Positions 2,691 to 17,828 of a DNA stretch of 32,536 nt are shown piece after piece. The position numbers were made by a program, and so were the translations under genes. How positions within the stretch are numbered: the first letter of the stretch is position 1; each line of letters starts with the position of its first letter. Source of the DNA: Candidatus Mediterraneibacter excrementavium. Its GTDB lineage: Bacteria; Bacillota; Clostridia; Lachnospirales; Lachnospiraceae. Where the stretch lies: NCBI GenBank assembly GCA_019120275.1, contig DWVL01000091.1, forward strand, positions 1 through 32,536. Reading direction: 5' to 3'. A model generated the notes under the pieces. The model saw only the letters and a list, made by a program, of their open reading frames with translations. It was not told the DNA's origin and did not search any database.

Positions 2691-3860
2691 ATGAAAATGT
2701 GGAAAAAGGCAGCAAGCCTTGCCCTTGCATCAGCGATGGTATTTTCACTGGCTGCATGCGGCGGCGGAAGTGACAGCAGCGAGGGCAATGCTGAGGCAAC
2801 GACATTCAAGATCGGCGGCATCGGACCGATCACAGGAGATACGGCAATCTATGGTACAGCGGTGCAGAACGGCATTCAGCTTGCAGTAGATGAGATCAAT
2901 GCGGACGGCGGCATCAATGGTTATCAGATCGAGTATCAGTTTGAGGATGACCAGTCTGATTCCGAGAAATCGGTTAACGCATACAACACACTGAAAGACT
3001 GGGGTATGCAGATGCTGGTCGGCACGGTAACATCCACACCGTGTACAGCAGTAGTTGAGGAGACGCACGCGGACAATATGTTCCAGCTTACACCGTCAGC
3101 TACAGCGGTTGAGAGTATCCAGTACGACAATGCATTCCGTATGTGTTTCTCTGACCCGAGCCAGGGAACTGTATCTGCGGATTATATTTCAGAAAACGGA
3201 CTTGCATCAAAAGTAGCGATTATCTATGACAGCTCTGATACTTATTCAACAGGTATCTACCAGAGCTTTGCAACAGAGGCTGAGGCAAAAGGGCTGGAGA
3301 TCGTAGCTGCAGAGGCGTTTACAGCAGACAGCAGCACAGATTTCTCCGTTCAGATCCAGAAAGCAAAAGATGCAGGCGCAGAACTTGTATTCCTTCCGAT
3401 CTATTATCAGGAGGCATCCCTGATCCTTGCACAGGCTGACAGAGCAGGATTCGCTCCGAAGTGGTTCGGCGTTGACGGTATGGACGGACTTCTTGACGTG
3501 GAAGGCTTTGACGCTGCACTGGCGGAAGGACTGATGTTCCTGACACCGTTCACACCGGATGCAGAGGATGAGGCGACACAGACATTTGTAGCAGATTTTG
3601 AAGAGGCATTTGGTAACACACCGATCCAGTTCGCGGCAGATGCATACGACTGTATGTACGTGATCAAAGCGGCTGCAGAGCAGGCTGACATTGATCCGAC
3701 GATGAGCGTATCTGATATGTGTGAGGCAATGAAGACAGCCATGACAGAGATTACGATCGATGGTCTTACAGGAAAACAGATTTCCTGGGGTGAGGACGGC
3801 GAGCCGTCAAAACAGCCGACAGTCGTAGTTATAGAAGGCGGAGCTTATAAAGTACTGTAG
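2691..3860 (+). CDS. ABC transporter substrate-binding lipoprotein, branched-chain amino-acid type
   Basis: A 389-residue periplasmic-binding-fold type I protein of the LivJ/LivK (Peripla_BP_6) family. A lipoprotein signal peptide (MKMWKKAASLALASAMVF, lipobox LAAC with the lipidated Cys near residue 23) anchors it outside the membrane. The mature protein begins with a Gly/Ser linker, then FKIGGIGPITGDTAIYG, typical of the ligand-binding N-lobe. AAGGAGGAG precedes the ATG. No permease or ATPase gene is adjacent, and terminators lie on both sides, so it is an orphan binding protein that must share a transporter encoded elsewhere. The ligand is probably an amino acid or small amide, not determined. 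The promoter overlaps a candidate cre site, suggesting carbon catabolite control. Confidence 0.88.
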   Translation: MKMWKKAASLALASAMVFSLAACGGGSDSSEGNAEATTFKIGGIGPITGDTAIYGTAVQNGIQLAVDEINADGGINGYQIEYQFEDDQSDSEKSVNAYNTLKDWGMQMLVGTVTSTPCTAVVEETHADNMFQLTPSATAVESIQYDNAFRMCFSDPSQGTVSADYISENGLASKVAIIYDSSDTYSTGIYQSFATEAEAKGLEIVAAEAFTADSSTDFSVQIQKAKDAGAELVFLPIYYQEASLILAQADRAGFAPKWFGVDGMDGLLDVEGFDAALAEGLMFLTPFTPDAEDEATQTFVADFEEAFGNTPIQFAADAYDCMYVIKAAAEQADIDPTMSVSDMCEAMKTAMTEITIDGLTGKQISWGEDGEPSKQPTVVVIEGGAYKVL

Positions 3861-8256: not shown

Positions 8257-8748
8257 ATGCAGATACAGATTACAGCGTATACGGACAGATATATAAAAGA
8301 AGCAGTGGATATCTGGAATCAGGTCGTGGAGGACGGTGTGGCCTTCCCACAGATGGAACTGCTTACAGAAGAAAACGCTGATCCGTTTTTTAAAGAACAG
8401 TCCTTTACAGGGCTGGCCCTTGATGCAGAAACCGGCCAGGCTGCCGGTCTCTATATCCTGCATCCGAACAATGTCGGACGGTGCGGCCATATCTGCAACG
8501 CCAGCTACGCCGTGCACAGAGATATGCGGGGACATCAGATCGGAGAAGCGCTGGTGCGCCACTGCCTTCAGAAAGCGAAAGAACTGGGATTTAAGATCCT
8601 TCAGTTCAACGCAGTCGTGGCATCCAACACGCCGGCGCTGAACCTGTATAAAAAACTCGGCTTTGTGAGGCTTGGGACGATCCCCGGCGGATTCCTCATG
8701 AAAGACGGGCATTACGAGGATATCGTAGTGCACTATATTGTTTTATAA
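8257..8748 (+). CDS. GNAT family N-acetyltransferase
   Basis: A 163-residue GCN5-related acetyltransferase. The acetyl-CoA-binding loop is visible as RDMRGHQIGEALVRHCL (motif A, R/Q-x-x-G-x-G/A type), followed by FNAVVASNTPALNLYKKLGF, the usual C-terminal motif. It transfers acetyl from acetyl-CoA to an amine of a small molecule or protein; the acceptor cannot be read from sequence. ATG 8257 is chosen because AGAGGAGAG (8241-8249) precedes it; the in-frame ATG at 8182 lies in the promoter region. The stop codon overlaps the end of the convergent topoisomerase gene by 6 bases. Confidence 0.88.
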   Translation: MQIQITAYTDRYIKEAVDIWNQVVEDGVAFPQMELLTEENADPFFKEQSFTGLALDAETGQAAGLYILHPNNVGRCGHICNASYAVHRDMRGHQIGEALVRHCLQKAKELGFKILQFNAVVASNTPALNLYKKLGFVRLGTIPGGFLMKDGHYEDIVVHYIVL

Positions 8749-10962
8749 TTTCAGATTCTTAAAGGCTTCCGCGAATGCGTTGTTGATCGGCGCATTCGCT
8801 TCTTTTGCCTGTTTTTTCATATAGGCGGCCACGTCGCGCTTATTAGCGCCTTTTCCTTCTTTCTTTTTCCGTTCCTGGAAAGCGCTCAGTTTCTCTTTAT
8901 GTCCGCAGGAGCAGACGAACCGCTGGGCGTCGCCTTTGCCGACCAGTTCCATTTTTTTGTGGCAGACCGGGCAGCGGGCGTTGGTGCGGCGGGAAATGGT
9001 TTCCCGGTATCCGCATTCCCGGTCCTGGCAGACGAGCATTTTTCCGTGTTTTCCGTTTACTTCCAGCATGAACTTCCCGCACTGAGGGCATTTGTGCCTG
9101 GTCAGGTTGTCGTGGCGGAAGGTTCCGTCCGAATTTTTGATCTGGCTGATCAGTGATCGGGTGTAAGCCTCGATCTCGGACATGAATTTCCCGGCGGACT
9201 CTTTTCCCTGTGCAATGGCTTTCAGGCGCAGCTCCCACTGGGCGGTGAGTTCGGGACTTTTCAGATCGGCGGGCACCAGGGCGAGGAGCTGTCTTCCCTT
9301 GGAGGTGATGTGGATCTCATTCCCTTTTTTTTCCATGAGGAAGCCGGCAAAAAGTTTCTCGATAATATCAGCCCGGGTAGCCACGGTCCCGAGGCCGCCG
9401 GTCTCGCCCAGCGTGCGGGCAAGGGTGCGGTCCTGACGCTGCATATAGCGCACCGGGTTTTCCATGGCTGCGATCAGGGTGCCTTCGGTAAAATAAGCGG
9501 GCGGACGGGTCCGGCCCTCAGTGGTGCGGATGGCGTCTGTTGTCAGGTCTGCTCCCTCTTTAAATGTAATAGCTGCGCTTCCGGGAAGCAGGCTGTCCGC
9601 CGCGTCATTATCAAAGCTTCCTTCATCCTCATCCGCTTCCGGATCCTGCCAGTCGGAGCCGTAGATTTCCCGCCATCCGGCGTTCAGGATGACGTTCCCT
9701 TTTGTGCGGAATGTCTCGCCGCCGATGGTTCCGGTCAGGGAAGTTTCCTCGTATTCGCATGCCGGGGACAGGACTGCAAGGAAGCGGCGGACGACCAGAT
9801 CATAGATCTTCCGCTCCTCATTCGAGAAATGTTCCGGCTGGACGAACTGTTCCGTCGGGATAATGGCGTGGTGGTCCGATACTTTTGAGTTATTTACGAA
9901 AGATTTATCTGCCCTGATCTCCCCCATGGCAAGCCGTGACGCGAATTTCCGGTAAGGACCGACAGCACATGCCTGGAGCCGTTCTTTCAGGGTGGGCACG
10001 ATGTCGGACGTAAGATACCGGGAATCCGTGCGCGGGTAGGTCAGGACTTTATGGTTTTCGTACAGGCGCTGCATGATGTTCAGGGTCTCTTTTGCAGAAT
10101 ATCCGTACCGCTGGTTCGCCTCCCGCTGAAGCGCGGTCAGGTCATAAAGCGCCGGCGCGAACGTTTTTTTCGCTTTTCTCCGGATCTCCGTGATGTGCAG
10201 GGTTTTTCCGCGCGCCGCTTTTTGGACGGCTTCGATCCGATCCTTGTTGAAGGTTCGGTTTGAGCCGGATTTCGCATCATTCCAGATGAATGTGATCCCG
10301 CCACAGGAAAGTTTCAGTCCATAATATGGTTTCGGAACAAATTTTTTAATTTCTTCTTCCTGGGCGGCGATCATTGCAAGGGTGGGCGTCTGCACCCGTC
10401 CGCAGGAGAGTTGGGCGTTATATCTGCATGTGAGTGCACGGGTGGCGTTGATGCCTACGACCCAGTCGGACTCCGCCCGCGCTACGGCGGCATGGTACAG
10501 ATTTTCATAATCTTTTCCCGGCTTCAGGCGGGCGAAGCCTTCCCGGATTGCCTTGTCGGTCACGGATGAGATCCAGAGACGTTTCACCGGCTTTTTATTT
10601 CCGGCTTTCTCAAGGATCCACCGGGCGACCAGTTCGCCTTCCCGCCCCGCGTCGGTGGCGATGATGATATCCGATACATCCCTGCGGAAGATCTGTTCTT
10701 TCACGGCGTGGTACTGCCGGGCGGTCTGGCCGATGACGACCAGCTTCCAGGGATCGGGAAGCATGGGCAGGGTGTCCATGCTCCAGGTCTTATACTGGCT
10801 TCCGTATTCCTCCGGGTCGGCCAGGGTGACCAGATGGCCCAGCGCCCAGGTAACAATATAGTTTTCCCCTTCCATATAGGAATTGTTCTTCTTTCCGCAG
10901 CCGAGCACCCGGGCGATGTCGCGGCCGACGGAAGGCTTTTCAGCAATGACAAGATGTTTCAT
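8743..10962 (-). CDS. topB: DNA topoisomerase III (type IA)
   Basis: A complete 739-residue type IA topoisomerase. The Toprim domain opens MKHLVIAEKPSVGRDIARVL, with ATDAGREGE as its metal-binding acidic motif. The catalytic Tyr is residue 309 in LTYPRTDSRYL. The C-terminal end carries zinc ribbons: CPQCGKF with CQDRECGY, then CPVCHKK with CSCGHKE. It relaxes negatively supercoiled DNA and decatenates single-stranded links. The length and the start MKHLVIAEKPS agree with Firmicutes TopB. It stands alone on the minus strand with no plasmid or integrative-element genes nearby, so it appears to be the chromosomal copy. Confidence 0.96.
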   Translation of the reverse strand: MKHLVIAEKPSVGRDIARVLGCGKKNNSYMEGENYIVTWALGHLVTLADPEEYGSQYKTWSMDTLPMLPDPWKLVVIGQTARQYHAVKEQIFRRDVSDIIIATDAGREGELVARWILEKAGNKKPVKRLWISSVTDKAIREGFARLKPGKDYENLYHAAVARAESDWVVGINATRALTCRYNAQLSCGRVQTPTLAMIAAQEEEIKKFVPKPYYGLKLSCGGITFIWNDAKSGSNRTFNKDRIEAVQKAARGKTLHITEIRRKAKKTFAPALYDLTALQREANQRYGYSAKETLNIMQRLYENHKVLTYPRTDSRYLTSDIVPTLKERLQACAVGPYRKFASRLAMGEIRADKSFVNNSKVSDHHAIIPTEQFVQPEHFSNEERKIYDLVVRRFLAVLSPACEYEETSLTGTIGGETFRTKGNVILNAGWREIYGSDWQDPEADEDEGSFDNDAADSLLPGSAAITFKEGADLTTDAIRTTEGRTRPPAYFTEGTLIAAMENPVRYMQRQDRTLARTLGETGGLGTVATRADIIEKLFAGFLMEKKGNEIHITSKGRQLLALVPADLKSPELTAQWELRLKAIAQGKESAGKFMSEIEAYTRSLISQIKNSDGTFRHDNLTRHKCPQCGKFMLEVNGKHGKMLVCQDRECGYRETISRRTNARCPVCHKKMELVGKGDAQRFVCSCGHKEKLSAFQERKKKEGKGANKRDVAAYMKKQAKEANAPINNAFAEAFKNLKL

Positions 10963-11025: not shown

Positions 11026-11868
11026 CTAAATGCTGTGGAACCCTTTTCCGATGATCTCGCTTGTGTTGGAGATGAGGATAAATGCCTGCGGGTCGTTCTG
11101 CCGGATAAAGTTCCTTAGCCGGACGGCCTGCACACGGTTCAGGGCGGTGAAGATGATGTATTTATCTTTACCGGAATAGGCGCCTTTGGCGTGACAGACG
11201 CTGGCGCTCCTGGAAAGTGTGTGCACGATGAAGTCGCAGATCGGTTCCGGATGGTCGCAGACGACATTGAAATATTTCGACAGGTTAAAGCTCTCTATGA
11301 AGTTGTCGATCATAAATGAGCGGATCGCCAGGCCGAGGACCGAATAAAGTCCGGTCTCCACATCAAAGATGAAGAAGCCGGCGGCCGTGATCAGCGCGTC
11401 TGAGATGAGGAGCGCCCGGCCGATGTCAAAACTGGAATATTTCTTCAGGATCATGGCAATGATATCCGTGCCGCCGCTGGACGCCCCGATATTGAAAAGG
11501 ATCGCCGAGCCGAGCGCCGGAAGCGCGATGGCGAAGCAAAGTTCCAGCATCGGCTGTCCGGTGAGCGGACGGTCCATGGGCCAGATGCGCTCCATGGCGG
11601 ACAGCGCCACGGAGAGAAGGATGCTGCAGTAAGCTGTTTTTGCGGCGAATTTCTTCCCCAGGACGATGAGGCCGATCAGCAGCAAGATCATGCTCATGAC
11701 CAGGTTGAAATCACTGGCGGAAATAAGCCCGGTCTTTGCGACCAGCACGGCCAGGCCGGTGATGCCGCCGAAGGTGAAATTATTGGTAAATTTGAAAAAA
11801 TACGTTCCGAAAGCAATGAACAGCGTGCTGAGCGTCAGCATGGAAAAATATTTGGCTTTTTCTTTCAT
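11026..11868 (-). CDS. YitT family membrane protein with C-terminal DUF2179 domain
   Basis: A 280-residue protein of the YitT family: about five or six membrane helices (residues about 10-190, including GTYFFKFTNNFTFGGITG and NIGASSGGTDIIAMIL), then a soluble DUF2179 domain (DKYIIFTALNRVQAVRLRNFI and FILISNTSEIIGKGF). The family is widespread in Firmicutes; transport is presumed but the substrate is unknown. The start at 11868 is chosen because AGGAGG lies 9 bases upstream on the minus strand; the longer frame to 11958 runs into the promoter. It is transcribed divergently from the enolase-like gene. Confidence 0.9.
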   Translation of the reverse strand: MKEKAKYFSMLTLSTLFIAFGTYFFKFTNNFTFGGITGLAVLVAKTGLISASDFNLVMSMILLLIGLIVLGKKFAAKTAYCSILLSVALSAMERIWPMDRPLTGQPMLELCFAIALPALGSAILFNIGASSGGTDIIAMILKKYSSFDIGRALLISDALITAAGFFIFDVETGLYSVLGLAIRSFMIDNFIESFNLSKYFNVVCDHPEPICDFIVHTLSRSASVCHAKGAYSGKDKYIIFTALNRVQAVRLRNFIRQNDPQAFILISNTSEIIGKGFHSI

Positions 11869-11929
11869 ATGCCGGTTCCTCCTGAGTGCATTCTGAATCT
11901 GAACAGGTATCATGTATGCATCTACCCGA

Positions 11930-11958
11930 ATTGTAATCTCTGGAATATGAAAAGTCAA
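11930..11958 (-). promoter_or_regulatory. Promoter of the YitT gene (minus strand)
   Basis: On the minus strand, TTGACT (11953-11958), a 17-base spacer and TACAAT (11930-11935). A near-consensus promoter for the YitT gene. Confidence 0.75.
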
Positions 11959-12012
11959 CGCATTAAGAAGGCACCGCGGGAAATACTAGGTCATGGAAGG
12001 AGGATGGGCAAA

Positions 12013-12681
12013 ATGGAGCGGTTAAATGCAGTTTTACCGATAAGAGATATCTTTTCCAGAGTGATCCTTAACTGCTGCGGACAGTCCGCCCTTGAGACGG
12101 AAGTGCTGGCCGGGGAGGATGTGGTCGGACGGGTATCCGTGCCGGGGAACGGAAGAGAGGATCCGGATGTGCGGGCGGACGCGGAGTATATCAATACCGT
12201 GATCGCAGGGGAGCTGACCGGGGAAAATATATTTGACCAGGAGCGGATCGACGGGCTCCTGTCCCGGTTTGAACGAAGAAGTGAAGCCCTGTTCTGTGTG
12301 TCCGCCGCTGCGGCCTCTGCGGCAGCCGCGGCGCTGAAACTCCCGCTGTACCGGTATCTGGGCGGCGTGCGTGCCACGCGTCTGCCGGTGCCGGAGATCC
12401 ATCTGACAGAAGAGGAGCCGGATCCGGCGTTGCATGTCAGGATCGGACAGACGGCGACGCTTGGCGAACTGTCCGGACAGATCCAAAAGGCGAAAGCGGA
12501 CGGAATCCCTGTGATCTTCTGCTGCTCAGAGGGGGAGACAGCGGATACGCTGCTGACGGATCTTGCAGTCGCATACGGGGCGGACCGGATCGATGCCGGA
12601 CCGGCGCGCCATATGGAGCATGTGGAAAAGTACAACCGGCTTCTCAGGATCCGTGAAAAGCTGGAAAAGAAGTTGACATGA
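12013..12681 (+). CDS. Truncated enolase-like protein lacking the catalytic barrel
   Basis: A 222-residue protein recognisably built from enolase (usually about 430 residues). Residues about 8-131 follow the enolase N-terminal domain: I.DIFSR in place of AREILDSRGNP, DQERID, then LPLYRYLGG and LPVPEI. Residues about 140-215 follow the extreme C-terminus: IGQTATLGEL, SEGETADTLLTDLAVAYGA and KYNRLLRIREKLE. The intervening TIM-barrel part with the Mg-binding acids and catalytic Glu and Lys is missing. The SGAST loop reads PGNG, the His-Arg-Ser of the C-terminal loop reads Cys-Cys-Ser, and the last active-site Lys is not kept. It therefore cannot be a working enolase. The frame is clean, with AAGGAGG 9 bases before ATG 12013. 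Whether it is a functional pseudoenzyme or a slowly decaying paralogue is undecided. Confidence 0.8.
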   Translation: MERLNAVLPIRDIFSRVILNCCGQSALETEVLAGEDVVGRVSVPGNGREDPDVRADAEYINTVIAGELTGENIFDQERIDGLLSRFERRSEALFCVSAAAASAAAAALKLPLYRYLGGVRATRLPVPEIHLTEEEPDPALHVRIGQTATLGELSGQIQKAKADGIPVIFCCSEGETADTLLTDLAVAYGADRIDAGPARHMEHVEKYNRLLRIREKLEKKLT

Positions 12682-12701
12682 ACAGCCGGATTCCGTAAGA
12701 T
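12673..12701 (+). promoter_or_regulatory. Promoter of the PH-domain operon, inside the end of the enolase-like gene
   Basis: TTGACA at 12673-12678, a 17-base spacer and TAAGAT at 12696-12701. The -35 overlaps the last codons of the enolase-like gene. The -10 runs into the inverted repeat at 12699-12724. Confidence 0.65.
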
Positions 12702-12724
12702 TGTATTAAAAAGATAATACAATC
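12699..12724 (+). repeat. 10-bp inverted repeat between promoter and PH-domain gene
   Basis: GATTGTATTA (12699-12708) and TAATACAATC (12715-12724) are perfectly complementary around AAAAGA. It covers the end of the -10 box and the expected start site, and ends just before the ribosome binding site AGGAG. Either an operator or a 5' hairpin next to the translation start. Confidence 0.6.
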
Positions 12725-12735
12725 AGGAGTGTGCT

Positions 12736-13284
12736 ATGGACGAAAAGATCATACAAAGTACGAAAGAATACAGGAAACTTCCGGTGCGGGCACTGCGCTG
12801 CATGTATACCGCCGATCTGGTGGCAGGCCTGATCGTTCTGGCCGTTATCGGAGCGGTCAATTATTTCTGGCTGTTTCCGAAGGATATAACCGTCGGGAAA
12901 TGGATCTCGCTGGCCCTGGCGCTGCTGACGCTGGCGGATATGACGGTCAGCCCGTATTTCCGGTATCACCGGTACCGGTATAGTATTAATGAAGAATGCA
13001 TCGACGTCATAGAAGGATATCTGTTTGTGAAACGGCAGATCGTGCCCATCGAGCGGATCCACAAGCTGCAGACCAAGAAAGGCCCCATCGACCAGGCGTT
13101 CCATGTGGCAAAGGTGATCGTGACCACAGGCGGCGGGGATGTGACGCTGTCCTTCCTGGAGGAAGAGCGGGCGGAGCAGATTGCGGACAGCCTGAGAAAG
13201 CGGATCAATGAGATCGTGCTGGAGCAGCGGTCCGCAGATGAACGGAAAGAAAACATACAGGAAGATGGGAAAAAGTATGAATGA
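12736..13284 (+). CDS. PH domain-containing membrane protein (YdbS-like, bPH2)
   Basis: A 182-residue protein with two N-terminal membrane helices (about residues 27-47 and 56-76), then a bacterial PH (bPH2/DUF304) domain. IEGYLFVKRQIVPIERIHKLQT is the typical core strand pattern of the YdbS family. In Bacillus subtilis the related YdbS/YdbT pair helps resist certain antimicrobial peptides; that role is known from the family, not shown here. AGGAG precedes ATG 12736. It overlaps the next gene by 8 bases, the same order as ydbS-ydbT. A charged, variable C-terminal tail follows the PH domain. Confidence 0.82.
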   Translation: MDEKIIQSTKEYRKLPVRALRCMYTADLVAGLIVLAVIGAVNYFWLFPKDITVGKWISLALALLTLADMTVSPYFRYHRYRYSINEECIDVIEGYLFVKRQIVPIERIHKLQTKKGPIDQAFHVAKVIVTTGGGDVTLSFLEEERAEQIADSLRKRINEIVLEQRSADERKENIQEDGKKYE

Positions 13285-14812
13285 GAACAGGAAATTCCGC
13301 AATCATATATCAGTCGTTCTGGAACAGACCGCAGGAGTGCTTGCTGCGATCGCGGTGCTCGTCGTTACACAGCTTCTGGAGCATCTGGATGAGATCCTGA
13401 AAGCGGATCTTTCGTTCCTGACGGAAAAGGGTGCGCTGATCGTGCCCGGCGTGATCCTTCTTCTGGCAGCGGCGGTCATCGCCCAGGTGCTGGTGTGGCG
13501 GAAGACGTACATATCGATCGAAGACAATGCGGTGGTGATCGAGAAGGGAAGCGTCAATAAGCAGAAGAATACGATCGGCATCCGCAATATTTCCAATATC
13601 AATCTGGAGCAGAACCTGATCGAAATGCTGTTCGGGACATGCAAGGTAAAACTGGATACGAACAGCCGGTCCACGGCGGACAGCACGGATGTGAAGATCG
13701 TACTGAAGAAGGCGGATGCGCTCTGGTTCCGTCAGGAAGTGGCGCGGCGGATCGAGGCGGCGGGCGGCCGGCCCGGTCTGCGCAAGCCGGAGAATGAAGC
13801 CGGCAGCGGGCAGGATTGCGCGGAAGAACAGCGTGGGGCGGTGCGCCCCGCGGAAGACGGCGAAGAATATGACGTGCGTGCAGACCTCGGGGACGTGCTC
13901 CGGCACGGCATTTTTTCGATCAGCGCGGTTTCGGTCGTGATCTTCATCCTTGCGCTCGCGGGAACCATGTTCAGCATGGTTGAAACGGTGCGCAATGCGG
14001 ACCTTCTCGGGACGGCGGCGGCCGGGATCGCGGTCGCGGCGCTGATTGCCCTGTCCTCTCTGTGGGATACGGTGAAAGATTTCGTCCGTTACTATGATTT
14101 CCGCGCAAAGCGCAGGGAGGATAAGATCCACATTCAATACGGGTTCTTTAAAAAGGTGGAATACACCATCCCGGTGGACAAGATCCAGGCGCTGAAGATC
14201 CGCCAGTCCATGGTGGCGCGGATCGGCCGGCGCTATATGGCGGAGATCATCAATGTGGGGATGGGAGATGACCAGGAGGAGAAACATTCGTTCCTGATCC
14301 TTTACTGTACGGAGAATGAACTGAGGCGTCAGCTCCGGCTCCTGCTTCCAGAGTATGCGGACACACCGGACATCCGGACAGAGCGGATGCCGGCGGCTGT
14401 CTGGGCGGCCTGGAGCATCCCGTTCGGGATCTTCGTGGCCTGTACATTCGCGGCAGCTGCAGCAGCAGCCTTTATGATACCAGAGAAATATATCCGTTTC
14501 CTGTGGCCCGGTGCGGCGGCTGTCCTTGTCCTTACCATTCTGTGCATGCTCCTCAGATACCGGACGGCCGGAACAGGCGCGGACAGGCGGATCCTGAAAA
14601 CAGCCGGCGGATATTTCGGCCGGCAGTATCTGTGCGTGCCCTTCAGGAACATCCAGTACGTGGAATTTTCATCCAATCCGGCGGCCAGGGCGAACGGGAT
14701 TAGCCGGGGCACCATGCATCTGCTGGCTTCGTCGGCGGATGCGGCGCAGGGCATCCCGTATTCCGGCAGGGAAAAAGAGGAAATGATAAAAGAGCGGATG
14801 CTTGTCTTTTAA
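13277..14812 (+). CDS. PH domain-containing membrane protein (YdbT-like, multiple bPH2 domains)
   Basis: A 511-residue membrane protein of the YdbT type. It has paired membrane helices (about residues 17-40 and 50-72), a first bPH2 domain (KTYISIEDNAVVIEKGSVNK, TIGIRNISNINLEQNLIE), a charged linker, a second helix pair and bPH2 domain (HIQYGFFKKVEYTIPVDKIQ), then a third helix pair and partial PH-like unit (CVPFRNIQYVEF). ATG 13277 overlaps the end of the YdbS-like gene, implying translational coupling; in-frame starts further upstream lie within that gene and would add a non-family sequence. The two proteins probably form a complex at the membrane. Confidence 0.82.
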   Translation: MNENRKFRNHISVVLEQTAGVLAAIAVLVVTQLLEHLDEILKADLSFLTEKGALIVPGVILLLAAAVIAQVLVWRKTYISIEDNAVVIEKGSVNKQKNTIGIRNISNINLEQNLIEMLFGTCKVKLDTNSRSTADSTDVKIVLKKADALWFRQEVARRIEAAGGRPGLRKPENEAGSGQDCAEEQRGAVRPAEDGEEYDVRADLGDVLRHGIFSISAVSVVIFILALAGTMFSMVETVRNADLLGTAAAGIAVAALIALSSLWDTVKDFVRYYDFRAKRREDKIHIQYGFFKKVEYTIPVDKIQALKIRQSMVARIGRRYMAEIINVGMGDDQEEKHSFLILYCTENELRRQLRLLLPEYADTPDIRTERMPAAVWAAWSIPFGIFVACTFAAAAAAAFMIPEKYIRFLWPGAAAVLVLTILCMLLRYRTAGTGADRRILKTAGGYFGRQYLCVPFRNIQYVEFSSNPAARANGISRGTMHLLASSADAAQGIPYSGREKEEMIKERMLVF

Positions 14813-14870: not shown

Positions 14871-17828
14871 ATGAGCATATATGACCTGACCGCCTATGAA
14901 GTCGTCAGAGAGGAAGATCTCTCGGATCTCAGATCAAAAGGCGTACTTCTGAGGCATAAAAAAAGCGGAGCGCGGGTGCTCCTGATGGAAAATGATGATG
15001 AGAACAAAGTGTTTGCCATCGGGTTCCGCACGCCGCCTTCAGACAGCACCGGCGTGCCCCACATCATGGAGCATTCGGTCCTGTGCGGTTCCCGGGAGTT
15101 CCCGGTGAAGGATCCATTTGTGGAGCTGGTGAAAGGATCTCTGAATACATTTTTAAATGCAATGACCTACCCGGATAAGACGGTTTACCCGGTGGCCAGC
15201 TGCAATGACGCGGATTTCCAGAACCTGATGCACGTGTATATGGACGCGGTGTTCTATCCGAATATTTATGAGAGCGACAAGACATTCCGGCAGGAGGGCT
15301 GGAGCTATCACCTGGAGGATCCGGACGGGGATCTGACCCTGTCGGGGGTGGTGTACAACGAGATGAAGGGCGCCTTCTCCTCACCGGAAGGCGTGCTGGA
15401 CCGGGTGATCCTGAATTCCCTTTTCCCGGATACGTCCTATGCCAATGAATCCGGCGGCGATCCGGATGTGATCCCGGAGCTGACCTATGAGCAGTTCCTT
15501 GATTTCCACCGGAAATATTATCATCCGTCCAACAGTTATATCTATCTGTACGGCGATATGGATATGGAAGAGAAGCTTCAGTGGCTGAATGAGAAATATC
15601 TCTCCGGTTTTGACCGGATCGAAGTGGACTCTGCGATCCATTATCAGGAAGCCTTCAAGGAAATGAAGGAGATCGTGCAGGAGTATTCCATAGCAAGCGA
15701 TGAAAGTTTATCAGATAATACCTATCTTTCCTACAATAAGGTGATCGGCACTTCACTGGATGAGAAGCTGTATCTGGCTTTCCAGATCCTGGACTATGCC
15801 CTTTTGTCCGCGCCGGGCGCGCCGCTTAAGAAAGCGCTGCTGGACGCCGGCATCGGCAAGGATATCATGGGATCTTACGATAACGGCGTATACCAGCCGA
15901 TCTTCTCGGTGATCGCCAAGAGCGCCAATATGGAACAGAAGGAAGCGTTTATCCGGGTGGTGGAAGATACGCTCCGGAATCTGGCGGAGAACGGTATTGA
16001 TAAAAAATCGCTCCGTGCCGGTATCAATTACTACGAATTCCGTTTCCGCGAGGCGGATTTCGGCAGCTATCCGCGGGGCCTGATGTACGGGCTGCAGCTT
16101 TTCGACAGCTGGCTTTACGATGAAGAGAAACCGTTCATCCACATGCAGGCCATCCCGACATTTGAATTCCTGAAGAGCCAGGTGGAGACGGGATATTTTG
16201 AGGATCTGATCCGGACGTGGCTGCTTAACAATACCCACGGCGCCATCGTGATCATCCGTCCGGAGCAGGGACGCACCGCGCGGATGGACCGGGAACTGGC
16301 GGAGGAACTGCAGACATATAAGGAAAGCCTCTCCGCAGAAGAACTGGAGAAGCTCGTCCGGGATACAAAAGAGCTGGAAGCCTACCAGGAAGAGGAGTCC
16401 GCGCCGGAGGACCTGGCGAAGATCCCGGTGCTGAAGCGCTCCGACATTTCCCGGGAGATCGCTCCGGTCTATAACGACGAGCGGGAAGTAAACGGCATAA
16501 AGATGGTCCACCACAATGTGGAGACCAACGGCATCGGGTATGTGACCCTTATGTTTGATCTGTCCGGCATCCGGGAAGAGAAGCTTCCGTATGTGGGGAT
16601 CCTGCAGAGCGTGCTGGGGATCATCGACACCACGAACTATGAATACGGAGAACTTTTTAACGAGATCAACGTGCACACCGGCGGCATCGGCACCTCGCTG
16701 GAGCTGTACACGGATGTGACGAAAGTAAAAGAAAAGGCGTTCCGCGCCACATTTGAAATGAAAGGAAAAGCCCTGTACCCGGAGATGGATGTGCTCTTTG
16801 CCATGATGCGGGAGATCCTGATGGAGTCGAAGCTGGATGATGAGAAGCGGCTGAAAGAGATCCTGGCCATGCTGAAATCCAGGCTCCAAATGTCCTTCCT
16901 CTCCTCCGGCCATACGACGGCGGCGCTCCGCTCCCTGTCCTATACTTCGCCGATCGCCAAGTTCAAGGACGATACAGACGGCATCGGGTATTACGAAGTC
17001 GTTAAAGAGATCGAGGAACATTTCGAAGAACACAAGGCGGAGCTGATCCGCAGCCTGAAAGCGATCGCGGCAAAACTCTTCCGCGCGGACAACATGATGG
17101 TCAGCTATACGTCCTCGGAAGACGGGCTGGAACCCATGGAAAAAGCCTTTGGCGCCGTGGGCGGACATCTGAATGACACATCTTCCGCGACGGAGCCGGC
17201 GGACGGCAGCGGTGACGGTGTTTCGGGGGCGTGCATCCTCCACTGCAGGAAACGGAACGAAGGGTTCAAGACGTCTTCAAAAGTACAGTACGTGGCGCGG
17301 ACCGGCAATTTCATCGACGGCGGCGCGGCGTACACCGGCGCCCTTCAGATCCTGAAAGTGATCTTAAGCTACGATTACCTGTGGCAGAACATCCGTGTCA
17401 AAGGCGGGGCTTACGGCTGCATGAGCAACTTCAACCGGATCGGCGAAGGGTATCTCATTTCCTACCGCGACCCGAACCTGAAGAAGACCATGGATGTGTA
17501 CGAGGGCGTGGTCGATTATCTCGAGAACTTCAGCGTGAGCGACCGCGACATGAATAAATTCGTCATCGGCACGATCAGCAACATCGACCGTCCGATGAAC
17601 CCGGCGGCAAAAGGCAGCCGGTCCATGAACCTGTACATGAACCATGTATCAGAAGAAATGATCCGCGCCGAGCGGAATCAGATCCTGGATGCGGACCAGG
17701 CGGACATCCGCGCGCTGGCGGATGTGCTGCGGGCGGTCCTGGCGGAACAGTCCCTGTGCGTCATCGGAAGTGAAGACAAGATCGAAGAGAACAGAGACAT
17801 GTTCATGGAAGTAAAGACACTGAGCTAA
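14871..17828 (+). CDS. M16C family zinc metalloprotease (presequence protease / insulinase type)
   Basis: A 985-residue protein, full length for the PreP/M16C group. The inverted zinc motif HxxEH is HIMEH at residues 64-68 (His64, Glu67, His68), with the distal zinc ligand probably Glu164 in VVYNEMKGA. The two-lobed clam-shell architecture and the M16C-associated middle region (IVIIRPEQGR, then the KIPVLKRSDISRE linker) are visible, and the C-terminal lobe is a non-catalytic repeat. No signal peptide, so it is cytosolic. Such enzymes degrade short unfolded peptides. AAAAAAGGAGA precedes the ATG. The next gene is era, separated by a REP hairpin. Confidence 0.93.
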   Translation: MSIYDLTAYEVVREEDLSDLRSKGVLLRHKKSGARVLLMENDDENKVFAIGFRTPPSDSTGVPHIMEHSVLCGSREFPVKDPFVELVKGSLNTFLNAMTYPDKTVYPVASCNDADFQNLMHVYMDAVFYPNIYESDKTFRQEGWSYHLEDPDGDLTLSGVVYNEMKGAFSSPEGVLDRVILNSLFPDTSYANESGGDPDVIPELTYEQFLDFHRKYYHPSNSYIYLYGDMDMEEKLQWLNEKYLSGFDRIEVDSAIHYQEAFKEMKEIVQEYSIASDESLSDNTYLSYNKVIGTSLDEKLYLAFQILDYALLSAPGAPLKKALLDAGIGKDIMGSYDNGVYQPIFSVIAKSANMEQKEAFIRVVEDTLRNLAENGIDKKSLRAGINYYEFRFREADFGSYPRGLMYGLQLFDSWLYDEEKPFIHMQAIPTFEFLKSQVETGYFEDLIRTWLLNNTHGAIVIIRPEQGRTARMDRELAEELQTYKESLSAEELEKLVRDTKELEAYQEEESAPEDLAKIPVLKRSDISREIAPVYNDEREVNGIKMVHHNVETNGIGYVTLMFDLSGIREEKLPYVGILQSVLGIIDTTNYEYGELFNEINVHTGGIGTSLELYTDVTKVKEKAFRATFEMKGKALYPEMDVLFAMMREILMESKLDDEKRLKEILAMLKSRLQMSFLSSGHTTAALRSLSYTSPIAKFKDDTDGIGYYEVVKEIEEHFEEHKAELIRSLKAIAAKLFRADNMMVSYTSSEDGLEPMEKAFGAVGGHLNDTSSATEPADGSGDGVSGACILHCRKRNEGFKTSSKVQYVARTGNFIDGGAAYTGALQILKVILSYDYLWQNIRVKGGAYGCMSNFNRIGEGYLISYRDPNLKKTMDVYEGVVDYLENFSVSDRDMNKFVIGTISNIDRPMNPAAKGSRSMNLYMNHVSEEMIRAERNQILDADQADIRALADVLRAVLAEQSLCVIGSEDKIEENRDMFMEVKTLS

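Follow-up and report, generated by a model that had tools for sequence, protein, structure and literature searches.

The window, by which we mean the whole 32,536-nucleotide stretch of DNA that was analyzed, carries a short enolase-related gene that we call eno2. It is read from the forward strand and lies between two genes on the reverse strand and three further genes on its own strand. The genes and features of the locus, with the basis of each assignment, are as follows.

8743–10962, − strand: DNA topoisomerase III (TopB), conserved neighbor (profile match, synteny).
11026–11958, − strand: YitT-family membrane protein, divergent neighbor in the conserved locus (profile match, synteny).
11997–12003, + strand: Shine-Dalgarno-like AAGGAGG (sequence).
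12013–12681, + strand: eno2, coding sequence of a putative 222-residue pseudo-enolase (frame, domains, orthologues, ω).
12040–12360, + strand: enolase N-terminal domain (residues 10–116), without catalytic loop L1 (Pfam, alignment).
12058–12060, + strand: Arg16, equivalent to enolase Arg8 in yeast numbering, kept by 31/31 inactive eno2 (alignment).
12094–12096, + strand: Glu28, equivalent to enolase Glu20, kept by 31/31 inactive eno2 (alignment; homodimer role described in PMC9452966).
12340–12393, + strand: LPLYRYLGG...LPVP segment, in which YLGG corresponds approximately to the start of the Staphylococcus aureus octamer contact Tyr135-Asn140 (contact described in PMC4667285).
12400–12426, + strand: junction at which loop L2 and the barrel middle (~154–342 in the intact eno2 of genome G006) are missing (alignment).
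12427–12669, + strand: last part of the enolase barrel, residues 139–219 (Pfam, alignment).
12523–12531, + strand: Cys171-Ser172-Glu173, replacing His370-Arg371-Ser372 of the catalytic loop (alignment).
12616–12618, + strand: Glu202, at the position of enolase Glu404, kept by 29/31 inactive eno2 (alignment).
12646–12648, + strand: Arg212, at the position of enolase Arg414, the partner of Glu20 in the homodimer, kept by 24/31 inactive eno2 (alignment; PMC9452966).
12736–13284, + strand: bacterial PH-domain (bPH_2) protein, downstream neighbor (profile match, synteny).
13208–14812, + strand: second, larger bPH_2 protein (profile match, synteny).
14871–17828, + strand: M16C peptidase (PreP-like), conserved neighbor (profile match, synteny).

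The eno2 frame is open from its ATG at 12013, and the AAGGAGG motif ends 9 nt 5′ of this codon. A second in-frame ATG, at 12004, abuts the motif and is the less likely start. A promoter and terminator scan gave four promoter-like sites against 2.4 expected, none of them immediately 5′ of eno2. The intact 222-codon frame and ribosome binding site described in an earlier sequence-only reading of this DNA are thus borne out, as is its description of the product as an enolase N-terminal domain followed by an enolase C terminus. Pfam Enolase_N matched residues 10–116 (profile positions 1–131 of 131, E 5e-11) and Enolase_C matched residues 139–219 (profile positions 203–283 of 296, E 4.5e-11). Both matches exceed the gathering score, which assigns the protein by descent to the enolase superfamily. 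That reading had the catalytic barrel removed altogether. The middle of the barrel is indeed missing, Enolase_C positions 1–202 having no counterpart, but its last part remains at residues 139–219, which we take, from enolase topology, to be three β-α units. Compared with the intact eno2 of genome G006, the protein lacks ~44–59, which form catalytic loop L1, and all but a few residues of ~154–342. Its score against the NCBIfam enolase equivalog TIGR01060 was 95.9 bits, far below the curated cut-off of 300, and it is therefore not an enolase equivalog. The NCBIfam family PRK08350, which we take to be that of the second enolase of Thermococci and Methanococci, also matched (54 bits, cut-off 624). 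Solved sequences matching the protein numbered 69, and the 60 of these that were listed are enolases, each with two matched stretches.

None of 13 scored enolase active-site residues is present in the 222-residue protein. The scored sites were S42, H159, Q167, E168, E209, D246, E290, D317, K342, H370, R371, S372, and K393; the site names are E. coli or yeast enolase numbers, and the residue identities are those of the alignment. The first eight sites have no counterpart in the protein. K342 is replaced by Arg and K393 by Asp, and the SHRS loop reads CCSE, so that His370-Arg371-Ser372 has become Cys-Ser-Glu. The sequence-only reading had reported Cys-Cys in place of His-Arg, a small misalignment; the pair has become Cys-Ser. 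Cys170, Cys171, and Glu173 of this former phosphate loop are invariant across four short orthologues (see below), as might be expected if the protein were still an enzyme, with residues replacing the enolase set and acting on another substrate or by another chemistry. We consider this very unlikely, given the eight catalytic sites without counterpart, the substitution of both lysines, and the fact that the replacing residues differ among inactive lineages.

Full-length orthologues with the same junction, an expectation of the sequence-only reading, were found in the genomes of three other species, at 98, 95, and 92% identity. The named records matching the protein are from Mediterraneibacter (3 loci). 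The four orthologues also bear on a second frame at this position, a 243-residue minus-strand frame at 11991–12722, which would be the true gene were eno2 open merely by chance. In three of the orthologues the minus-strand frame has no stop within 666 bases, but in the orthologue from genome G031 it has four, and the plus-strand frame is open in all four. The enolase domains on the plus strand are significant, and the variable sites fall at plus-strand third codon positions. Together, the G031 stops, the plus-strand domains, and the codon-position pattern refute the antisense gene, to which we attach next to no probability.

The eno2 gene is present in 55 of 58 Mediterraneibacter genomes. Matches at E 1e-13 were obtained in 54 of these, G026 (1.5e-13) was added, and G014 carries two copies, giving 56 copies in all. 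Counted within the fetched stretches, many of them on short contigs, YitT was found beside 50 copies, TopB beside 39, each bPH gene beside 40, and M16 beside 39. This shared arrangement, TopB-YitT / eno2 / bPH-bPH / M16, establishes the copies as orthologues at one locus. No eno2 was found in the other three genomes of the genus (G021, G072, and G080), where the remaining enolases were eno1 only, plus a third type in G021. The YitT orthologue that adjoins eno2 also seems to be absent from these three genomes, in which only YitT relatives of 23–32% identity were found. The two absences may represent a joint loss.

A separate full-length enolase gene, eno1, whose presence the sequence-only reading had anticipated, is encoded on a separate contig, C61, of this genome. 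It is a 438-residue open frame that scores 661 bits to TIGR01060 and retains 13/13 active-site residues; eno1 active sites were scored in 8 genomes. A high-scoring eno1 accompanies inactive eno2 (defined below) in 30 of 31 genomes. In the 31st, G019, the start of eno1 is found at 3640–3726 of a contig of 3728 bases, and so the gene runs off the contig. No genome examined relies on an inactive eno2 alone. Among genomes with an intact eno2, 23 of 24 have eno1, the exception being G034 (98% complete), where the sole enolase found is the intact eno2. In a TIGR01060 survey of 28 Lachnospiraceae genomes, 15 had a single enolase, which the tree places with eno2, and two high-scoring enolases were found in six (G084, G095, G098, G108, G119, and G222). 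Both copies were in the tree for four of these six; in G084, G108, and G119 one copy falls with eno1 and the other with eno2, which is not the case in G095. From the family-wide placement, the two-enolase genomes, and G034, eno2 seems to be an ancient enolase that was at one time functional.

The 56 eno2 copies differ widely in their active sites. Twenty-five keep 11–13 of the 13 residues, and we refer to these as intact; the remaining 31, which keep 0–9, we refer to as inactive. The inactive copies comprise 22 of 393–462 residues and nine of 225–339 residues. These lengths depend on the chosen start: with the ATG at 12004, the 222 residues of the window protein become 225. For the ten of 64 scored rows that have no clear start, the length was counted from the preceding stop. 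Shortened copies are found in the four-species clade of the window and in G008 (232 residues), G070 (279), G068 (288), G013 (326), and G005 (339). Part of the barrel is also gone from the 405-residue eno2 of G026, a relative of G005. In every shortened eno2 the main deletion is internal to the barrel, the two termini of the protein being retained, and several lineages lost the barrel center separately. The nearest relative of the 222-residue clade is G070, the eno2 of which looks like an intermediate toward the short form.

The active site was lost more than once. In a tree of the neighboring genes the inactive rows are scattered, with a minimum of 8 changes on 54 rows or 7 on 52 rows (the former omitting G028 and the second G014 copy, the latter also G034 and G008). 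Grouping of all inactive eno2 as one clade was rejected on the 52-row tree (p-AU 2.7e-44). For the 22 inactive rows that fall on the same side as the window, one origin is compatible with the data (p-AU 0.11); this set was picked after the tree had been seen. Support is weak at many internal nodes and the tree searches were quick, so our claim is limited to rejection of a single origin. The enolase tree itself has long branches, and 26 inactive rows group together in it. This grouping may be due to attraction, and we therefore relied on the neighbor-gene tree.

Selection was assessed with our own M0 script (GY94, F3x4) rather than a published program. For the four 222-residue orthologues ω was 0.195–0.199 on three topologies (LRT 43.3–45.5 versus ω = 1), with 0.13 for residues 1–131 and 0.29 for residues 132–222. 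Their alignment of 222 columns contains neither an indel nor a stop, the frame being open in 4/4 species. The variable sites number 13, 11, and 44 at the three codon positions, so that 44/68 are third-position sites. When neutral evolution was simulated 5000 times with base changes alone along four equal branches, the four frames all remained open in 0.86% of the runs. Among the neighbors at the locus, ω was 0.17–0.21 for the bPH genes, 0.09–0.10 for topB and M16, and 0.06–0.09 for YitT. Neither a lack of orthologues nor a neutral ω, the two outcomes that the sequence-only reading had named against itself, was found, which supports its proposal that the protein retains a role outside enolase chemistry.

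The longer inactive eno2 copies are also under purifying selection. Nine usable estimates from five groups gave ω of 0.12–0.42, each with an LRT of at least 13.9, whereas intact eno2 gave 0.04–0.13 in five of six pairs, the other pair (G063/G071) showing almost no change. The inactive values lie above the intact ones and below 1, indicating that constraint is relaxed but real. Codon pairs that could not be used were G066/G064, for which the null beat the alternative, and G004/G036, G026/G005, and G000/G070, which were saturated (dS 27 to 30). By region, ω was lowest in the C-terminal units for four of the five inactive groups, one value (the C-terminal part of G024/G009) being saturated. In G074/G020 the N-domain (0.063) is below the C-terminal units (0.077), with a saturated estimate for the barrel middle. 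Five inactive frames (G004, G009, G023, G024, and G026) had been flagged for an internal stop. Each flagged stop is the frame's own 3′-end stop codon. The match extends beyond it in G026 alone, by 9 codons.

These data can be set against the possibility that eno2 is a decaying relic, redundant beside eno1 and lost piecemeal, with the open frames as leftovers. Several observations are in keeping with decay: the graded lengths (225 to 462 residues) and graded loss of the active site, the relaxed ω of inactive relative to intact eno2 (as slow decay of the gene in some lineages would also produce), the three of 58 genomes without the gene, and the truncated enolases of Butyrivibrio, read as gene loss in PMC6118326. 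A relic is nevertheless improbable, since the ω of the short form is similar to that of the neighboring bPH genes, the variable sites are concentrated at third positions, open frames would seldom persist under neutrality, and the flagged stops are genuine gene ends. An intact paralogue in the same genome and selection persisting after catalytic loss are instead what is expected of a retained pseudoenzyme, which the 222-residue product very probably is.

In the clade of G030, G062, and G077 (loci L057, L113, and L112) the inactive eno2 is very fast-evolving and its neighbors are slow. Only 0–5 of the 13 residues are left, against 11–13 in the next relatives; the frame is open and ω is 0.33.

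We compared residue retention across 170 alignment columns that are at least 96% invariant in the 25 intact eno2 and 8 eno1 sequences, a set that includes 12 of the 13 catalytic columns. Retention was calculated over inactive rows having a residue at the column, with weights that reduce three near-identical groups (total weight 26). Mean retention was 29% for the catalytic columns versus 60% for 154 other invariant columns (Mann-Whitney p 0.0003) and versus 50% for the 56 polar columns among the others (p 0.009). The inactive eno2 proteins have therefore lost catalytic residues preferentially. With gaps counted as lost, the invariant sites are best kept in the LPLYRYLGG-LPVP segment (96%) and the N-terminal hairpins (79%). 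Intermediate values were obtained for the N-domain helices (66%), a7-b8 (65%), the C-terminal helix (63%), and b6-a6 (58%), and the poorly kept regions are the barrel middle (48%), the SHRS loop (41%), L2 (31%), and L1 (23%).

Residues at the enolase subunit interface are among those best retained. Arg8 presumably pairs with Glu404. Glu20 and Arg414 are described as forming the antiparallel enolase homodimer (PMC9452966), with an interface between the N-domain of one subunit and the C-domain of its partner (PMC4356359). For the S. aureus enzyme, strands 1–3 and helices 5 and 12 are reported to take part in dimerization, Tyr135-Asn140 to be the center of the octamer contact, and dimers to be inactive (PMC4667285). 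R8 and E20 are present in all 31 inactive eno2, E404 in 29, and R414 in 24, being changed in the other seven; these contact residues were chosen once the alignment was in hand. Fourteen invariant columns are fully retained by weight, including several Gly, Ala, and Asp, a Ser, and an Asn, so that R8 and E20 do not stand alone and could serve folding instead of dimer contact. The C-terminal helix is retained to about the same extent as the N-domain helices and a7-b8, which weakens a strict dimer reading. Of the partners suggested in the sequence-only reading, namely enolase, the RNA degradosome, or a surface ligand, the pattern of kept residues would favor enolase.

A structure prediction for the 222-residue protein, made with its three orthologues (4 sequences), had a mean pLDDT of 47.8 and a pTM of 0.36. 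A Foldseek search with this low-confidence model gave no match at E ≤0.001, the best (0.028) being to enolases over ~80 columns. A Csm/AcrIIIA2/enolase complex listed by Foldseek suggested that the protein could be a decoy for a phage protein, an idea that was set aside.

Selection in the absence of catalytic residues would also fit a retained pseudoenzyme that acts without Eno1, for example through a moonlighting contact, with the RNA degradosome, at the cell surface, or elsewhere, that the full enzyme formerly made. PMC4356359 and PMC4390880 report that enolase moonlights and belongs to the degradosome, and the latter describes a fast-evolving second enolase (arCOG paralogues) in Thermococci and Methanococci, for which a non-glycolytic ancillary role was proposed. 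Such a role seems to us less likely for eno2 than one involving Eno1. The five neighbors examined are the same for intact and inactive eno2 and so give no hint of a partner peculiar to the inactive copies, and the most retained residues include the subunit-contact residues R8 and E20.

Returning to a pseudoenzyme that acts on Eno1, the course of events was probably as follows. An ancestral second enolase at a fixed Mediterraneibacter locus was freed of glycolytic duty by the presence of eno1, which takes care of that step. The active site was then lost in several lineages, and some of these, including that of the window, also lost the barrel middle. The N-terminal domain and the end of the barrel were retained, and it is through the surfaces of these two parts that enolase subunits are joined. 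We infer that the product is made and folds. Its most likely mode of action is to join the normal enolase in mixed oligomers, or else to pair with itself; to co-assembly with Eno1, suggested by the retained contact residues, we give about an even chance. Joining would change the assembly, activity, or partners of Eno1, or alternatively the eno2 protein would hold a partner. The S. aureus enzyme is described as needing its octamer for activity (PMC4667285), and so a small pairing subunit unable to form the ring could lower or localize activity. That a glycolytic enzyme has repeatedly been turned into a non-catalytic miniature subunit, setting enolase activity or partners from within mixed rings, is a tentative proposal that we hold at somewhat less than an even chance.

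The 222-residue protein is homologous to enolase (phosphopyruvate hydratase; TIGR01060, PF03952 + PF00113) in its N-domain and last barrel part, and is unlike it in its equivalog score and in having all 13 active-site residues absent or changed. The archaeal second enolase resembles eno2 in being a fast-evolving paralogue alongside a glycolytic one but comes from a different domain of life. Closer relatives are the rumen Butyrivibrio, members of the Lachnospiraceae with shortened enolase genes; about half of the strains are stated to have no enolase and some a truncated form, read as gene loss (PMC6118326, PMC2914790). The passages concerned name no second intact enolase and no selection test, whereas eno2 lies in genomes with eno1 and is under purifying selection. 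A functional likeness to eno2/eno1 may be found in the AdoMetDC prozyme (PMC5201418) and deoxyhypusine synthase (PMC3663545), in each of which a catalytically dead paralogue is described as activating its partner. These are not enolases, and their heteromers, of inactive paralogue with active enzyme, were demonstrated experimentally, whereas a heteromer of eno2 and Eno1 is proposed here from sequence. The open-access literature searched yielded no account of an enolase pseudoenzyme from Mediterraneibacter or elsewhere in the Lachnospiraceae, of a repeated, selected series of inactive enolases at one locus, or of a regulatory-subunit scheme for enolase. What appears to be known already is the proposal of a non-glycolytic second enolase in archaea and the truncated enolases of Butyrivibrio.

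Enolase occurs in almost all organisms and has been studied extensively. Since a single protein carries out both, its roles outside catalysis are difficult to tell apart from the enzymatic one. In these gut bacteria a second enolase has repeatedly lost its active site, and in the genome of the window half of its length, yet remains protected by selection, and so probably has a new job, for example tuning the working enzyme. The eno2 locus thus offers a natural separation, with selected inactive copies beside an intact one and with intact, half-lost, and miniature stages at the same position, and it allows the direct question of what enolase does besides catalysis. It also raises the question of whether the truncated enolases of related rumen bacteria are working proteins.

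Further enolase-like genes were observed outside the eno2 locus. Proteins scoring ~340–380 bits to TIGR01060 are encoded at G021:C3:34209-35450 (L152), G073:C2:39253, G023:C11:89815, G001:C5:1024052, and G116:C1:1223016 and 1224332, the last two being side by side. In L152, the one of these that was read, the phosphate loop is SGRSGG instead of SHRSGE. Two Lachnospiraceae genomes, G086 and G088 (97 and 96% complete), gave no enolase match at E 1e-8 and in this respect resemble the Butyrivibrio strains that lack enolase. In other Lachnospiraceae genera, apparently shortened enolase frames are present beside a full-length enolase at G090:C10:47700-48395 (248 residues) and G089:C28:99322-99852 (178 residues).
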